Below, piece by piece: positions 33,211 through 38,655 of a DNA stretch of 64,000 nucleotides; positions within the stretch are counted from its first letter, which is position 1; each line of letters starts with the position of its first letter. The notes below the pieces were generated by a model. The model did not search any database. It was not told where the DNA came from and saw only the letters and a list, made by a program, of their open reading frames with translations. The stretch comes from Hyphobacterium sp. CCMP332 (lineage in GTDB: Bacteria > Pseudomonadota > Alphaproteobacteria > Caulobacterales > Maricaulaceae): contig NZ_CP058669.1 of the NCBI RefSeq assembly GCF_014323565.1, forward strand, positions 1,143,501-1,207,500, in the 5' to 3' direction. Both the position numbers and the translations under genes were made by a program.

Positions 33211-34251
33211 AGCATGACCCGATTTCATGGAATCGGGATTCCCAAGGGCCTTGGGATGTGATTCAAGCTTCATGCTGGATGGGAGGCCAGCATGAATGAC
33301 GGCTCCTTATTCGATGGATCTTCGTGAGCGCGCGATGGCGCGCAAGGCGCGGGGCGAGACGCATCGCGAGATTGCCGCGGCGCTTGAGATCAGCCCGTCA
33401 TGCGTGTCGAAGTGGGTCAAGCGCGAGCGCGAGACGGGGTCTTTGGCGTGGGGCCGGATCGGCGGCCACAAGCGGCGAACCCTGTCCGGGGAGGTCGCCG
33501 AGTGGCTTCGCGATCGGGTCGCGTCGGGGCCGGTGACCTTGAGGGGCCTGACTGCGGAGCTGGCGGAGCGCGGGATCAAGACCCAGCCGCGTGCGGTCTG
33601 GGTGTTCCTGCATGACGAGGGCCTGAGCTTCAAAAAAAACTCTGCTGGCCGAGGAGCAGACGCGTCCTGACGTGGCGCGCAAGCGGGCGCGCTGGATGAG
33701 CCGGCAGGGGCGGATCGATCCGCGGCGGCTGATCTTCCTCGATGAAACCTGGGTGAAGACCAATATGGCGCCGCTGCGCGCTGGGGGCCGAGGGGCGGCG
33801 CTTGAAGGGGTATGCGCCCCACGGCCGCTGGAAGACCCTGACCTTCATCGCCGCCCTGCGCCATGACCGGATCGAGGCGCCCTTCGTGATCGACGGCCCG
33901 ATCAACGGCGCGTTCTTCCAGGCCTATGTCGAGCAGATCCTGGCTCCCACCCTGTCACCCGGCGATGTGGTGATCCTGGACAATCTCGGCAGCCACAAGG
34001 GCAAGGCCGCCAGGGCCGCCGTCAGGGCCAGAGGCGCCCATCTGATCTTCCTGCCGCCCTACAGCCCGGACCTGAACCCCATCGAGCAGGTCTTCTCCAA
34101 GCTCAAGCATCTGATGCGCAAAGCCCAGCCCAGAACCCCCGAGGACACATGGCGAAAAGCCGGCCAGCTCCTCGACCTCATCAGCCCGGACGAATGCGCC
34201 AACTACCTGACTAACTCAGGATATGGTTCCGTCTAATGGAGCCCCGCTCTA
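33208..34251 (+). mobile_element. IS630-family insertion sequence, complete ends
   Basis: The element is bounded by TA dinucleotides (33208-33209 and 34250-34251), the target-site duplication of the IS630/Tc1 group. Imperfect terminal inverted repeats start GAGC at both ends, and 16 of the first 25 positions agree. Inside is a DDE transposase in three frames. It inserted exactly at the stop codon of the HIT gene. Its last 285 bases are repeated almost perfectly at 36571-36855. Confidence 0.85.
33296..34236 (+). pseudogene. IS630 transposase, frame broken (one A-run insertion, two G-region deletions)
   Basis: Conceptual repair gives about 313 residues: an N-terminal helix-turn-helix (MDLRERAMARKARGETHREI region), then the DDE catalytic domain with FLDETWVK (first Asp), VILDNLGSHK (second Asp) and PYSPDLNPIE (Glu). 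The frame changes at an 8-A run near 33632-33639 and twice near 33780-33800. A-runs are known frameshift sites in IS630 elements, so the first break could be programmed; the other two are not in slippery sequence. As written, a full protein needs three shifts, so it is probably inactive or mis-sequenced. Confidence 0.8.
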
Positions 34252-34264
34252 AGTCAAAGGCCGT

Positions 34265-34720
34265 CTAGCGGAAGCCCCGACCGATAGAAATGGCGCGCCA
34301 ACACTCACCATAGGTGCCTGTCTCAAAGCTCGGCCCCATAACAATGGCACACTGGTCGCGGGTGGCGCGCGTAGCCGGGCGGACGACAATGCCGAACTGG
34401 ACCGACTCAGGGAAACCGCTGGTGGTCATCCCCGGCGAAAGGATCTGGCCGAGCACCGCACCAATTCCTGACCCTTCACCGGGAGTGAAAACGGCGCTGT
34501 AATGGCTTGGATTGCCATTCCTGAAGCATGACAGGACAACGGCCGTTTCGGTGACGTGGGCACCCTGAATTATGCAGCTGAGCTGTCCGCCGGCATCCAC
34601 TGGTTGGGCGGTAAGCCCCGGGCGTTGCGGCTGAGCAGGCTGGGACCGGCTTTGCGCCTCAGTCACTGACCCAAGCATATTCACCACTAGAACTGCTACA
34701 ATCAATCCTGTTCTTGACAT
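34265..34720 (-). CDS. secreted hypothetical protein between insertion sequences
   Basis: From the ATG at about 34720 the 151-residue precursor has a clear Sec signal peptide (TGLIVAVLVVNMLGSVTEA, cleavage after about residue 23). A Gln/Pro-rich linker (about 24-45) follows, then a mature domain with cysteines near residues 48, 65, 124 and 139 that could form disulphides. No family is recognised. It stops 14 bases after the IS630 right end and is bounded on the other side by the IS110 element, so it may be acquired cargo or an old resident gene stranded between elements. Confidence 0.65.
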   Translation of the reverse strand: MSRTGLIVAVLVVNMLGSVTEAQSRSQPAQPQRPGLTAQPVDAGGQLSCIIQGAHVTETAVVLSCFRNGNPSHYSAVFTPGEGSGIGAVLGQILSPGMTTSGFPESVQFGIVVRPATRATRDQCAIVMGPSFETGTYGECWRAISIGRGFR

Positions 34721-34914
34721 GTGCATCTCCAAAGCCTGACAGGCAAGAAGGTTAACACAACTGTCAGAAGCCGTGAATATGATTCAGCGCTCAGGGCCGA
34801 CGGACAAGAAAAGTTTATGCAATCTCCAACCAGCTCTACCGTGACCTGAGCCCCATATTGGAGCCAAACCTAATGACGGGGCGATTAATCTGACAGAACT
34901 CCGGAGCGGGCGCT
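34721..34914. other. intergenic region upstream of the secreted protein gene
   Basis: About 195 bases between the secreted-protein start and the presumed left end of the IS110 element. It must hold the promoter of the minus-strand gene. I see no open frame with coding character, no terminator hairpin, and no IS630-like sequence here. Confidence 0.4.
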
Positions 34915-34921
34915 GTCATGT

Positions 34922-34933
34922 GTGGACGGCCCC
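34922..34933 (+). repeat. subterminal inverted repeat of IS110-type element, left copy
   Basis: The 12-base word GTGGACGGCCCC is exactly matched in inverse orientation at 36277-36288. The pair brackets the transposase gene asymmetrically, as expected for an IS1111-group element. Confidence 0.7.
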
Positions 34934-35186
34934 CGTTTAGCAAGGGTTGATTTGGGTGACTTTTGATCATTGCGGGTTGCGGTCATGTGTCCGGCCTATT
35001 GACGCGGTAGCGATGACCGCTGGCCCTGATGAAGTCCGCGTGCTGAGATCCCTCTCAGAGGATCGAGCTCTTACGCCCTGACAACGCCTCGGGTTTTCCT
35101 CAGCTGCGGCCCCGTTTGATCATCATCACTTACATCTGCCCTCGCATCTCTTCAGCGGTGCCGTGTGGGCTACCGCATGCTCTGTT
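34934..35186 (-). ncRNA. candidate bridge/seek RNA region of the IS110-type element
   Basis: IS110 elements are guided by an RNA encoded in their non-coding end, and IS1111-type members carry it downstream of the transposase. This 253-base stretch is that end. It contains an 8-base perfect stem (GCGGTCAT at 34979-34986 with ATGACCGC at 35013-35020, 26-base loop) and a second hairpin (GATCC at 35047-35051 with GGATC at 35060-35064). No coding frame of note is present. Exact RNA ends, and loops matching target and donor, cannot be fixed without more copies or folding. Confidence 0.45.
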
Positions 35187-36209
35187 TCACACCATTGCAG
35201 GTGCCCGATAGGTCTCGCCGCGTGCCAGCACCGCCCAGGCGATGCGCGCGGTCTTGTTGGCCATCGCCACAGTGGCTACGCGTGCCGGCTTGCGCTCCAG
35301 CAGACGCCTGACCCAGTTGCCCGTTGCCGACGTGTTGGTGCCAACGCGCCGGATGACCGAGGTCGCCCCCACCACAAGAAGCCTGCGCAGATATCCATCG
35401 CCCATCTTTGATATGCACCCCAGACGGTCCTTACCACCCGACGAGTTCTGGCGTGGCACCAGCCCAAGGAAGGCGGCGAACTGGCGTCCGGACTTGAACA
35501 CCGATGGGTCGGGTATGCTCGCGGACAGTGCGGTCGCCGTGATCAGGCCTACGCCAGGTATGGTCTCCAGTCGCTGACTGGTTTCATCTTCGCGGTGCCA
35601 GGCCATGAGCCGACGCTCCAGTGCACGGATCTCAGCCGCCAGATTATCGAGCTGGGCCATCAGGCTGCTCAGGGCCGAGCGAGCGATGTCTGGCAAGCCG
35701 GGCATCTCCTCATCGCGCATCGCTTCGAGCAGAGCGGCCAGCTTGTGTGGACCCTGCGCTGTGATGATGCCGAACTCGGCCAGATGGCCGCGGATCGCAT
35801 TGAGCACCATGGTGCGTTGGCGCATCAGGAGATCGCGCGTCCGGTGCAGCATCATCACACCCTGGCGCTGCGCACTCTTGACCGGAACAAATCGCATGGT
35901 GGGCCGCGTCACCGCCTCGCAGATCGCCTCAGCATCAGCCACATCATTCTTCTGACGCTTGACGTAGGGCTTCACATAGGCCGGCGGGATCATCTTCACC
36001 TTATGGCCCAATGCGCCGATCTCGCGGGCCCAGAAATGGGCTGTGGCGCAAGCTTCCAGCCCGACCAGGCAGGGTGGCAGGTCGCGCAGGAAATCCAGAA
36101 CGCCATTCCGGCGCAGTTTCTTGCGGAACAGGACTTCACCATGCGCGTCAACGCCGTGAAGCTGAAAAACAGATTTGGCCAGATCAATGCCGATTGTTGT
36201 AAGAGTCAT
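35187..36209 (-). CDS. IS110-family (IS1111 group) DEDD transposase
   Basis: From the ATG at 36209 (AAGGAA upstream) the protein has 340 residues. The N-terminal RuvC-like DEDD domain starts TTIGIDLAKSVFQLHGVD and includes GLEACATAHFWAR and KNDVADAEAICEA. The C-terminal transposase_20 domain contains TIPGVGLITATAL and FAAFLGLVPRQNSSGGKDRLG with the catalytic serine region. The gene is intact, so the element may still be mobile. It is oriented opposite to the flanking IS630 sequences. Confidence 0.93.
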   Translation of the reverse strand: MTLTTIGIDLAKSVFQLHGVDAHGEVLFRKKLRRNGVLDFLRDLPPCLVGLEACATAHFWAREIGALGHKVKMIPPAYVKPYVKRQKNDVADAEAICEAVTRPTMRFVPVKSAQRQGVMMLHRTRDLLMRQRTMVLNAIRGHLAEFGIITAQGPHKLAALLEAMRDEEMPGLPDIARSALSSLMAQLDNLAAEIRALERRLMAWHREDETSQRLETIPGVGLITATALSASIPDPSVFKSGRQFAAFLGLVPRQNSSGGKDRLGCISKMGDGYLRRLLVVGATSVIRRVGTNTSATGNWVRRLLERKPARVATVAMANKTARIAWAVLARGETYRAPAMV

Positions 36210-36276
36210 CGTGGACGGTTCCTTCCGTTGCTGCTGTCTAACAGCTCCAGCATGGCACATTGCGATGCCGTAGGTC

Positions 36277-36288
36277 GGGGCCGTCCAC
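36277..36288 (-). repeat. subterminal inverted repeat of IS110-type element, right copy
   Basis: Reads GGGGCCGTCCAC on the plus strand, the exact reverse complement of 34922-34933. It lies about 68 bases upstream of the transposase start. Confidence 0.7.
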
Positions 36289-36335
36289 CCCATCAGAGAA
36301 ACAGCCCGTTAGACGTGGCCGGGCATCCTGCCCGT

Positions 36336-36458
36336 ATGACCAACCCATTTCGCTACTTCAAGACTTGGCCCGAGATCATCCGCCTGGCAGTAGTGATGTA
36401 TATCCGCTTTCCGCTCTCGCTGCGGAATGTGGAGGATCTGCTTCATGAGCGCGGGATC
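36336..36458 (+). pseudogene. IS6-family transposase remnant, N-terminal 41 codons
   Basis: Begins MTNPFRYFKTWPEII and continues through RFPLSLRNVEDLLHERGI, the well-conserved N-terminus of IS6/IS240-type transposases. After residue 41 similarity stops, and the DDE domain is absent. The open frame runs on through unrelated sequence into the truncated IS630 copy in a wrong frame, making a meaningless chimera. It lies about 40 bases outside the right end of the IS110 element. No IS6 terminal repeat was recognised. Confidence 0.7.
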
Positions 36459-36570
36459 TACTGCTCTGCTCCGCAAAAAGGTAGGGCGACGCGGTCTCGG
36501 TGGAAGCGATATGGGCTGATCCGCTCGGACGTATCCCGCGAAGCGCCCCGGCTGAGCTTCCGCTGGAGCG

Positions 36571-36855
36571 GTGGTGATCCTGGACAATCTCGGCAGCCAC
36601 AAGGGCAAGGCCGCCAGGGCCGCCGTCAGGGCCAGAGGCGCCCATCTGATCTTCCTGCCGCCCTACAGCCCGGACCTGAACCCCATCGAGCAGGTCTTCT
36701 CCAAGCTCAAGCATCTGATGCGCAAAGCCCAGCCTAGAACCCCCGAGGACACATGGCGAAAAGCCGGCCAGCTCCTCGACCTCATCAGCCCGGACGAATG
36801 CGCCAACTACCTGACTAACTCAGGATATGGTTCCGTCTAATGGAGTCCCGCTCTA
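36571..36855 (+). mobile_element. truncated second IS630 copy, 3' 285 bases only
   Basis: Matches 33967-34251 base for base apart from about three substitutions (for example CCC to CCT near 36735 and GCCCC to GTCCC near 36845). It carries the transposase C-terminus (VILDNLGSHK to the stop at 36840) and the right inverted repeat, ending in TA at 36854-36855. The 5' three quarters are missing, and an IS6-type remnant plus about 110 unexplained bases adjoin it. The terminal TA forms part of the recQ stop codon. Confidence 0.88.
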
Positions 36856-38655
36856 GGTCTGCGCGCGCAGCGCCGCCAGAAAGACTTCGCCAAGATCGGC
36901 CAGCTTCTTCGGTCCGACCCCGTTGACCGCGGCCATCTGCTCCAGATTTTCAGGCCGCAAATGGCACATATCAATCAGGGTCGCATCGGAAAATATGACA
37001 TAGGCGGGCACATTGCGTTCCGCAGCCAGCTCGCGGCGTAAATTCTTGAGTGCGGCCAGCAATCCGGAATCAACGTCGCTCTCGCCCGCCTTGCTCGCGC
37101 GGGTACGGCGGGGCTTCCGCTCGCCTTTGCCAATGACGATCTCTCGCAGCTCAAACGTCTCGCGGCCGCGCAACACAGCATCGCCACGATCCGTGAGCTT
37201 GAGGACACCAAACTGATCGATATCGGATTTCAGATATCCGCCGGCGACCGCTTGCCGGATCAAGCCTTGCCAGAAGGCCTTCGGCCGATCCTTGCCAATG
37301 CCATAAGTTGGTAAAGCATCATGCCCGCGCGCCCGGACCTTGTCCGTATCTCCGCCCCTCAGCACATCGACAACATGGCCAGATCCGAAGGACTGGCCGG
37401 TCCGGAGAATGGCGGAAAACAGCATTTGCGCTTCGCGTGTCCCATCCAGAAGAACCGGCGGGTCGAGGCAAATATCGCAATTTCCACATGCCTTCGCACC
37501 CGGCTCGCCGAAATAGGATAACAGCGTGATGCGCCGACACTGGGTTGCTTCGCAATAGGCCAGAAGCGCATCAAGGCGCTGATGCTCGCGCCGCTTATGC
37601 CCCTCATCCTCACCGTCGCCATCAATGAAACGCCGGCGCAGCCCGGCATCGCCCATGCCGTACAGCAGCATCGCGTCGGCGGGCGCACCGTCGCGGCCGG
37701 CCCGGCCAATCTCCTGATAATAGGCCTCCATGGAGCCGGGCATGTTCAGATGGAAGACATAGCGGATATCCGGCTTGTCGATCCCCATCCCGAACGCGAT
37801 CGTCGCCACCATAACAACCGCGTCCTCGGCCATGAAAACTTCCTGATTCTCACGCCGCATTTCTGGCGACATCCCGGCATGATAGGGCAGTGCCCGGTAG
37901 CCTTCGGCCTTGAGCAGGTCCACAACCTCTCCCGTCAGTTTGCGCGACAGGCAATAGACAATGCCGGACTGTTCCCTGCGCTCCGCCAGAAATTCGAGAA
38001 TTTGAGACTTCCACTGGAGTTTCGGCGTAACGGAGAGGTTGAGATTGGGGCGGTCGAAGCCGCGCACGATGGTTTCGCCTTCACCGTTGAACAGTTTTTC
38101 GGTGATGTCAGCGCGCGTGGCACTATCAGCTGTGGCCGTAAATGCCGCCAGTGTCGCATTGGGGAAATGATGTTTGAGTTGCGAAAGCTGCTCGTATTCA
38201 CGCCGGAAACTGGCACCCCACTTGGAAATACAATGGGCTTCATCGACGACAAACAGGCCCGGCTCGACCGATTTGAGCGCATCCAGCATACGTGGCGTCA
38301 TCAATCGCTCCGGCGAAAGATAAAGGAGCTTTGCCTCTCCCGACTGAAACGCCCGCCAGGCAGCGACATTTTCCTCGCGGCTGCGCCCGGAATGGATCGC
38401 CACCGCGGCCACTCCGTTTGCCACCAGCCCGGCAACCTGATCATCCATCAACGCCACCAGCGGCGAGATAATGATCGAGGGGTGGTCCCGCATCAGGGCG
38501 GGCACCTGATAGCAGAGCGATTTACCCGCCCCGGTCGGCATGACGCACAGCGTATGCTTGCCTTCCAGCAATCGCTCCACGATCTGTATCTGGCCGGGCC
38601 GGAATTCGGGAAACCCGAACACGGACTTCAGGACAGAATGAGCGGACACAGTCAT
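36853..38655 (-). CDS. recQ: ATP-dependent DNA helicase RecQ
   Basis: RecQ unwinds DNA in recombination and replication repair. The 600-residue protein shows Walker A PTGAGKS (about 41-47), the DEAH box VVDEAHCISKWG, the QEIGRAGRDG motif VI, the four-cysteine zinc site (C...CGNCDIC), an RQC region, and a C-terminal HRDC domain (about 520-598). The ATG at 38655 (MTVSAHSVL) was chosen because the upstream extension is not family-like. Its stop codon TAG straddles the end of the truncated IS630 copy. Confidence 0.95.
   Translation of the reverse strand: MTVSAHSVLKSVFGFPEFRPGQIQIVERLLEGKHTLCVMPTGAGKSLCYQVPALMRDHPSIIISPLVALMDDQVAGLVANGVAAVAIHSGRSREENVAAWRAFQSGEAKLLYLSPERLMTPRMLDALKSVEPGLFVVDEAHCISKWGASFRREYEQLSQLKHHFPNATLAAFTATADSATRADITEKLFNGEGETIVRGFDRPNLNLSVTPKLQWKSQILEFLAERREQSGIVYCLSRKLTGEVVDLLKAEGYRALPYHAGMSPEMRRENQEVFMAEDAVVMVATIAFGMGIDKPDIRYVFHLNMPGSMEAYYQEIGRAGRDGAPADAMLLYGMGDAGLRRRFIDGDGEDEGHKRREHQRLDALLAYCEATQCRRITLLSYFGEPGAKACGNCDICLDPPVLLDGTREAQMLFSAILRTGQSFGSGHVVDVLRGGDTDKVRARGHDALPTYGIGKDRPKAFWQGLIRQAVAGGYLKSDIDQFGVLKLTDRGDAVLRGRETFELREIVIGKGERKPRRTRASKAGESDVDSGLLAALKNLRRELAAERNVPAYVIFSDATLIDMCHLRPENLEQMAAVNGVGPKKLADLGEVFLAALRAQT

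Follow-up and report, generated by a model that had tools for sequence, protein, structure and literature searches.

Bridge RNA and seekRNA systems, in which a non-coding RNA of an insertion sequence guides its transposase, have been in print since 2024 (PMC11187229, PMC11208160). For the IS1111-group elements ISEc11, ISPa11, ISKpn4 and ISPst6, the seekRNA paper describes a non-coding region downstream of the gene for a transposase of about 340 amino acids with an S(t)G motif, subterminal repeats of 11-13 bases with extensions of 7 and 3 bases, and guides that consist of a complement of the target top strand followed by a match to the bottom strand (PMC11187229). This guide order is reversed in ISEc21, a member of the IS110 group (PMC11187229). 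The bridge RNA of IS621 contains a target loop and a donor loop with two guides each, core bases included (PMC11208160). IS621, however, belongs to the IS110 group, with an RNA from the left end and subterminal repeats of 2-3 bases, whereas right-end bridge RNAs with donor-binding bases are predicted for IS1111 elements in ISfinder (PMC11208160). Two further IS1111-group elements, IS4321 and IS5075, insert in the terminal inverted repeats of another transposon, those of the Tn21 family (PMC8269217).

Here, we analysed a window of 64,000 nucleotides from the alphaproteobacterium Hyphobacterium sp. CCMP332 and found an element with the downstream non-coding region, subterminal repeats, extensions, guide order and transposase of ISEc11 and its kin. 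Its RNA is predicted to have the two loops, with two guides each, of the IS621 bridge RNA. The kind of system is thus a known one, and the element is a further, undescribed example. Based on a structural model and on matches to insertion sites, the 3' non-coding end very probably encodes a bridge RNA (the long seekRNA form, about 166 nt) that would guide the DEDD transposase into the terminal repeat of an IS6-family element. In this it differs from ISEc11 and its kin (PMC11187229), as it does in having an RNA that is predicted and donor guides that are proposed; IS4321 and IS5075 resemble it in using the repeat of another mobile element but aim at Tn21-family repeats rather than at the IS6-family repeat next to the start of the transposase gene (PMC8269217). 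Titles and abstract openings returned by a literature search named no IS1111 element in IS6 ends, and we do not claim that such a case is absent from print.

Results

An IS1111-group element present in four copies

The insertion sequence occupies 34919-36295 of the window (minus strand, 1377 bp). A preliminary description of the locus had reported an intact DEDD transposase, and the reading frame at 35187-36209 (minus strand) is indeed open, encodes 340 amino acids and matches both Pfam domains of the family, DEDD_Tnp_IS110 (PF01548) and Transposase_20 (PF02371). The NCBIfam model NF033542, 'IS110 family RNA-guided transposase', scored 361.7 bits, and the motif GL-P----S(t)G can be read by eye in the translation as GLVPRQNSSG. 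Sequence matches to solved transposases were obtained for ISCro4 (E 3.5e-12) and, over residues 180-335 only, for IS621 (E 1.3e-11). A TIGR-Tas endonuclease model also gave a weak, sub-threshold match to the protein (E 1.2e-4; 22.1 bits, where the cut-off is 100).

The subterminal inverted repeats reported earlier are perfect over 12 bases, with GTGGACGGCCCC at 36277-36288 on the left and GGGGCCGTCCAC at 34922-34933 on the right (both minus strand). The element had been taken to end at these repeats, at 34922 and 36288. Because IS1111 elements have 7 (left) and 3 (right) bases outside their subterminal repeats (PMC11187229), we placed the true ends outside, at 36295 and 34919, which adds the left extension TGATGGG (36289-36295, minus strand) and the right extension ACA (34919-34921, minus strand). 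The ends given by this 7/3 rule agree with the flanks of all four genomic copies and with uninterrupted IS6 ends; they are the same in the four copies, one of which measures 1376 bp. A TGA on both sides leaves an ambiguity of up to 3 bases. Between the stop codon and the right repeat lie the 253 non-coding bases previously noted, downstream of the transposase gene. The element thereby shows several features of the IS1111 group: the motif, repeats with 7/3 extensions, a long downstream non-coding region, and one target in one orientation.

The genome, a single contig of 2.69 Mb, holds four full copies, in one of which a one-base gap in the transposase alignment splits the frame. They represent three independent sites, since the window copy and the copy at 216 kb share one duplicated stretch of 3458 bases (99.9%; window 33402-36856, genome 214,615-218,072). 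In the window, the element is flanked by direct repeats of about 285 bases (33967-34251 and 36571-36859), both of which contain the terminal part of a DDE_3 transposase ORF. Six partial matches to the right end of the element (L005-L010) were found as well. These fragments of 28 to 99 bases lie beside TGACA or TGGCA sites and are perhaps the remains of earlier copies cut away by IS6-linked deletions. In a plasmid search, 1370 records contained a match and nine covered at least 80% of the query, with identities of 65-72% among the matches listed.

A conserved RNA structure in the 3' non-coding end

The non-coding ends of 39 relatives, none from the window's own group and all with a transposase identity to the window's element of at most about 60%, were aligned, and the alignment was then folded. 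The consensus contained 27 pairs, 16 of them with changes on both sides. Paired combinations filled 96.5% of 1051 cells, and this share fell to 22.8-45.3% when partners were shifted by 1-3 columns. Structural covariation among homologues, whose absence would have refuted the proposal of the preliminary description, is present in this computed structure, with both-side changes in 121 cells against 38.3 after shuffling.

A covariance model (R1), made without the window's group, matched 34965-35130 on the minus strand with 115 bits (E 3.2e-30); the next match within the 64-kb window had an E value of 4.8. Across the genome, where 150 of 1340 first-look candidates were scored, the four matches at E ≤ 0.001 were the four element copies. 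The model recovered 55 of 74 sources outside training at E 1e-5 or better, a test set in which some sources are close kin of training rows and L001-L004 are identical in the RNA stretch. Among these 74 it missed L049, L107-L116, L122 and L006-L010, and it scored L005 and L020 at only E 0.02 and 0.0049; L110-L116 are distant (about 27-36%), L107-L109 partial and L006-L010 short remnants. The earlier placement of an RNA at 34934-35186 can hence be narrowed to a conserved, structured core at 34965-35130, on a strand (minus) that had been left unstated.

All parts of the predicted fold lie on the minus strand. In the outer helix of the target loop, 35098-35104 pairs with 35042-35048 and all seven pairs change on both sides among the 39 relatives. 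Model placement and pair counts also locate an apical hairpin, GGGC..GCUC, at 35065-35078, and a closing helix of the donor loop in which GCGG (35036-35039) pairs with CCGC (34979-34982), with 97.4% of cells paired and little variation. Within the donor loop, a local hairpin (GCGGU/ACCGC, 35004-35020) has both-side changes in three of its five pairs.

Two other hairpins had been proposed in the region. The letters of the 8-base stem (GCGGTCAT/ATGACCGC, 34979-34986 and 35013-35020) are there, but they are not one of the conserved helices. Six of its eight pairs could be counted on the 39 relatives. The share of paired cells was slightly above that of shuffles (85.0% versus 82.5%; 0 of 500 as high), as was the covariation score (0.248 versus 0.208; 1 of 500), but both-side changes stayed at shuffle level (two cells, in one of six pairs, versus 1.3; 211 of 500 as high), and the inner two pairs were unpaired in 19 and 13 of the 39 rows. 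This stem joins the second GCGG of the region to the last CCGC, whereas the conserved fold joins the first GCGG (35036-35039) to that CCGC and leaves the second GCGGU with its own local partner, ACCGC. We favoured the conserved fold because both-side changes occur in three of five pairs of the local hairpin, compared with one of six for the stem. Likewise, the letters GATCC..GGATC of the second hairpin (35047-35064) exist, but its pairing is not conserved (40.0% of cells versus 39.9% shuffled); in the conserved fold these letters are shared between the left target guide and the 3' portion of the outer helices. Both hairpins were rejected as functional helices.

Could the stretch be an ordinary 3' end with chance hairpins? 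The little or no covariation of these two hairpins would suit that reading, as would single-sequence folding of the window RNA, which was unexceptional (z -1.45; 15 of 200 shuffles as good). No Rfam family reached its gathering score in the window, and 34900-35200 gave chance-level matches only (best E 3.3). The model match, the pair covariation, the genome-wide matches and the guide and swap tests below speak against chance, which we regard as hardly credible.

Target guides follow the insertion site

In the target loop, we located two guides that fit both flanks. The right target guide GGCGUUGUCA (35079-35088, minus strand) is the complement of the right flank TGACAGCGCC with one G-U. The left one, UCCUC followed by the core UGA (35055-35062, minus strand; the guide proper at 35058-35062), has the same letters as the top strand of the left flank, which it fits at 4 of 5 bases in the window's own copy. 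The top-strand complement comes first, as in IS1111 seekRNAs.

Of 118 loci with a transposase match, 92 gave ends by the repeat rule, eight gave none (L017, L020, L033, L034, L040, L049, L122, L124) and 18 were skipped for an identity below 47% or a match that did not extend to residue 330. From the 92 we removed twelve with a short flank (L013, L042, L050), an odd left end (L022, L023, L028, L073, L103) or a repeated site (L046, L091, L092, L096), leaving 80 sites; L016 and L076 were retained despite right ends that seem to be misread. The segment test drew on 78 sites, since the structural alignments contained no row for L031 or L044.

A scan that compared positions in the RNA and in the flanks at the 80 sites revealed a diagonal on the left. 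Position 35058 agreed with L-1 in 77 of 80 sites (z 11.1; permutation maximum 7.1), followed by 35060 with L-3 (z 9.8), 35061 with L-4 (z 9.1), 35059 with L-2 (z 7.6) and 35062 with L-5 (z 6.2), with weaker off-diagonal signals also present. On the right, where the permutation maximum was 6.3, a complementary diagonal ran through R3, R5, R6, R7 and R9 (z 6.0 to 8.1). Off-diagonal pairs reached comparable values there, for example 35133 with R6 (z 7.1), and we tentatively ascribe such signals to relatedness. The window's right guide sits one base closer to the apical hairpin than the scan diagonal.

Guides were also scored as segments, which avoids alignment shift and tolerates small offsets. 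At the 78 sites, right guides matched their own flanks at 7.23 of 8 bases and other flanks at 5.63, and left guides at 4.04 versus 2.66 of 5; 0 of 10,000 permutations reached either value. Because small offsets are allowed the background is high: over all pairings, 24% reached at least 4 of 5 on the left and 33% at least 7 of 8 on the right, compared with 61 and 67 of 78 for own pairings.

As permutation ignores kinship, relatives with different guides and sites were compared pairwise by swapping guides, in pairs that are not mutually independent. When the non-coding ends were at least 90% identical, 46 of 59 pairs fitted better unswapped (12 ties, 1 worse). The corresponding counts were 56 of 62 (5 ties, 1 worse) at 85-90%, 39 of 43 (4 ties) at 80-85%, 196 of 232 (30 ties, 6 worse) at 70-80%, and 2412 of 2573 (108 ties, 53 worse) below 70%. 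The expectation that the loops match the flanking insertion site was thus borne out, with computed guides that fit the junctions and change with the target. In principle, the stretch might be conserved as DNA, namely as a right-end binding site of the transposase, with the resemblance to the target arising otherwise. Its location in the element end and the strong conservation of some parts would agree with this. Compensatory changes in the helices, however, and the fact that close relatives with different targets have correspondingly different guides are difficult to reconcile with a DNA site, and we consider it very improbable. The bridge RNA that had been proposed is supported by both the covariation and the junction complementarity.

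Three Maricaulis elements with 87-89% transposase identity (L011, L012, L013) closely resemble the window's element in their RNA but differ from it in left guide and left flank. In L011 the left guide UUGUC faces the flank TTGTC. In L012 UCGUC meets TTGTC with one mismatch, and the right guide has one mismatch beside two G-U. In L013, which stands outside the guide counts because its left flank has only 6 bases, UAAUC faces TAATC and the right guide fits TGACATTGCC with one G-U. No IS6 transposase was found near these three sites. Many of the largely Rhodobacterales elements L021-L090 have right flanks like GGACATTCGC in common, with differing left flanks.

The target is an end of IS6-family elements

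All four full copies (three independent sites) share one insertion point and one orientation. Each lies 40-45 bases upstream of a gene for an IS6-family transposase or of what is left of it, and the target is not duplicated. The intact IS6 transposase of this genome scored 195.6 bits with NCBIfam transpos_IS6 and matched Pfam DDE_Tnp_IS240. In the window, the IS6-family transposase gene whose terminal repeat serves as the target survives as a remnant at 36336-36515 (plus strand; 65% identical in tblastn to the intact transposase, residues 1-56); 36336-36458 alone gave no Pfam match. The stretch 36336-36840 consists of this transposase-start remnant and then a DDE_3 piece, which we take to be IS630-like and in which the last part of the ORF at 33802-34236 recurs.

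Since an inverted motif that closes with TCTGACA, 44-46 bases from the gene end, is common to the start and end sides of IS6 elements, our reading is that the insertion point would fall within the IS6 terminal inverted repeat. Fourteen IS6 matches (two in one gene) occur in the genome. The gene start is visible in 12, four of them occupied and eight free, and none of the six visible gene-end sides is occupied. The sequence of one free start side, TTTCCTC/TGACAGCGCC, corresponds to the two flanks of copy L002 joined together; at this uninterrupted end the left guide fits at 5 of 5 positions and the right guide at 10 of 10 with one G-U. UCCUC fits at 4 or 5 of 5 positions in six of the eight free start sides and at 3 in the other two, compared with 4 in one of six gene-end sides and 2 or 3 in the others. 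The right guide, G-U included, fits at 9-10 of 10 at start sides and at 8-9 of 10 at gene-end sides. These counts come from a repeat made without the target-like pattern; a first comparison, of pattern-found and hand-sorted sites, had omitted L140. All six partial right ends adjoin TGACA or TGGCA with a similar stretch after it.

The donor loop and the joined ends of the element

We next consider the donor loop, whose left guide CACAUGA (34983-34989, minus strand) has the same letters as the right end CACA joined to the left end TGA. Against a permutation maximum of 7.8, position 34987 equals RE-2 in 75 of 77 distinct elements (z 9.9) and position 34985 has the base of LE+1 in 48 of them (z 10.3), and this computed covariation indicates that CACAUGA reads the joined ends. 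The proposed right donor guide UUCAUCA (35027-35033, minus strand) could pair by sequence with the left end TGATGGG at 7 of 7 positions, two of them G-U; 35032 follows LE+6 in 65 of 77, with a z of 5.2 that does not reach the permutation maximum of 7.4. The donor loop would thus read the element's own joined ends, clearly on one side and weakly on the other.

An alternative is that only the first half acts as a guide, as a short seekRNA with the target loop, while the second half binds the transposase or aids processing and the protein reads the ends through the inverted repeats. RNAs of 70-100 nt are reported to be the abundant form and to suffice for ISEc11 movement, and the parts of the seekRNA paper drawn on here assign target matches and no donor ones (PMC11187229). 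A short guide would not account for the covariation of 34987 with RE-2 and of 34985 with LE+1, however, and donor-binding bases are predicted in IS1111 RNAs (PMC11208160). We therefore judge the short guide unlikely and prefer an RNA with two guiding loops.

The target-loop base 35057 (minus strand), the first core base, equals LE+1 in 59 of 77 elements (z 10.7). At the 39 of 78 sites where LE+1 and the first base of the target differ, it agrees with LE+1 at 25 sites and with the target base at 7. That it follows its own left end over the target may be a hint to the place of strand exchange.

Discussion

By analogy with the IS1111 and IS621 literature, we infer that the RNA is transcribed and that the DEDD transposase would bind it. 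Excision would yield a circular form of the element, with a promoter created at its junction. TTGC or TTGA occurs 25-31 bases before the circle junction in 74 of 79 elements, a hint from sequence only, and the promoter consensus behind it is one we presume. The second loop of the RNA would pair with the element's own joined ends, and the circle would then insert, through strand exchange, in the terminal inverted repeat beside an IS6-family transposase start.

The locus provides an annotated candidate guide RNA with both target guides, proposed donor guides, its target and free sites in the same genome. The targeting rules of IS1111 elements thereby become testable in a simple two-plasmid assay. 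The element belongs to a mostly alphaproteobacterial group in which close relatives show natural changes of aim, and IS6-family ends join the transposon ends used by IS1111 elements. The left guide of the window's element prefers the IS6 repeat next to the transposase start to the one at the opposite end, and its Maricaulis kin, with a closely similar RNA, have other left guides that fit other flanks. On this basis, we raise the tentative idea, which may well prove wrong, that this IS1111 lineage exploits the ends of other insertion sequences and shifts its aim among sites through changes in a few bases of the guides; insertion within the repeat would then switch the IS6 host off.
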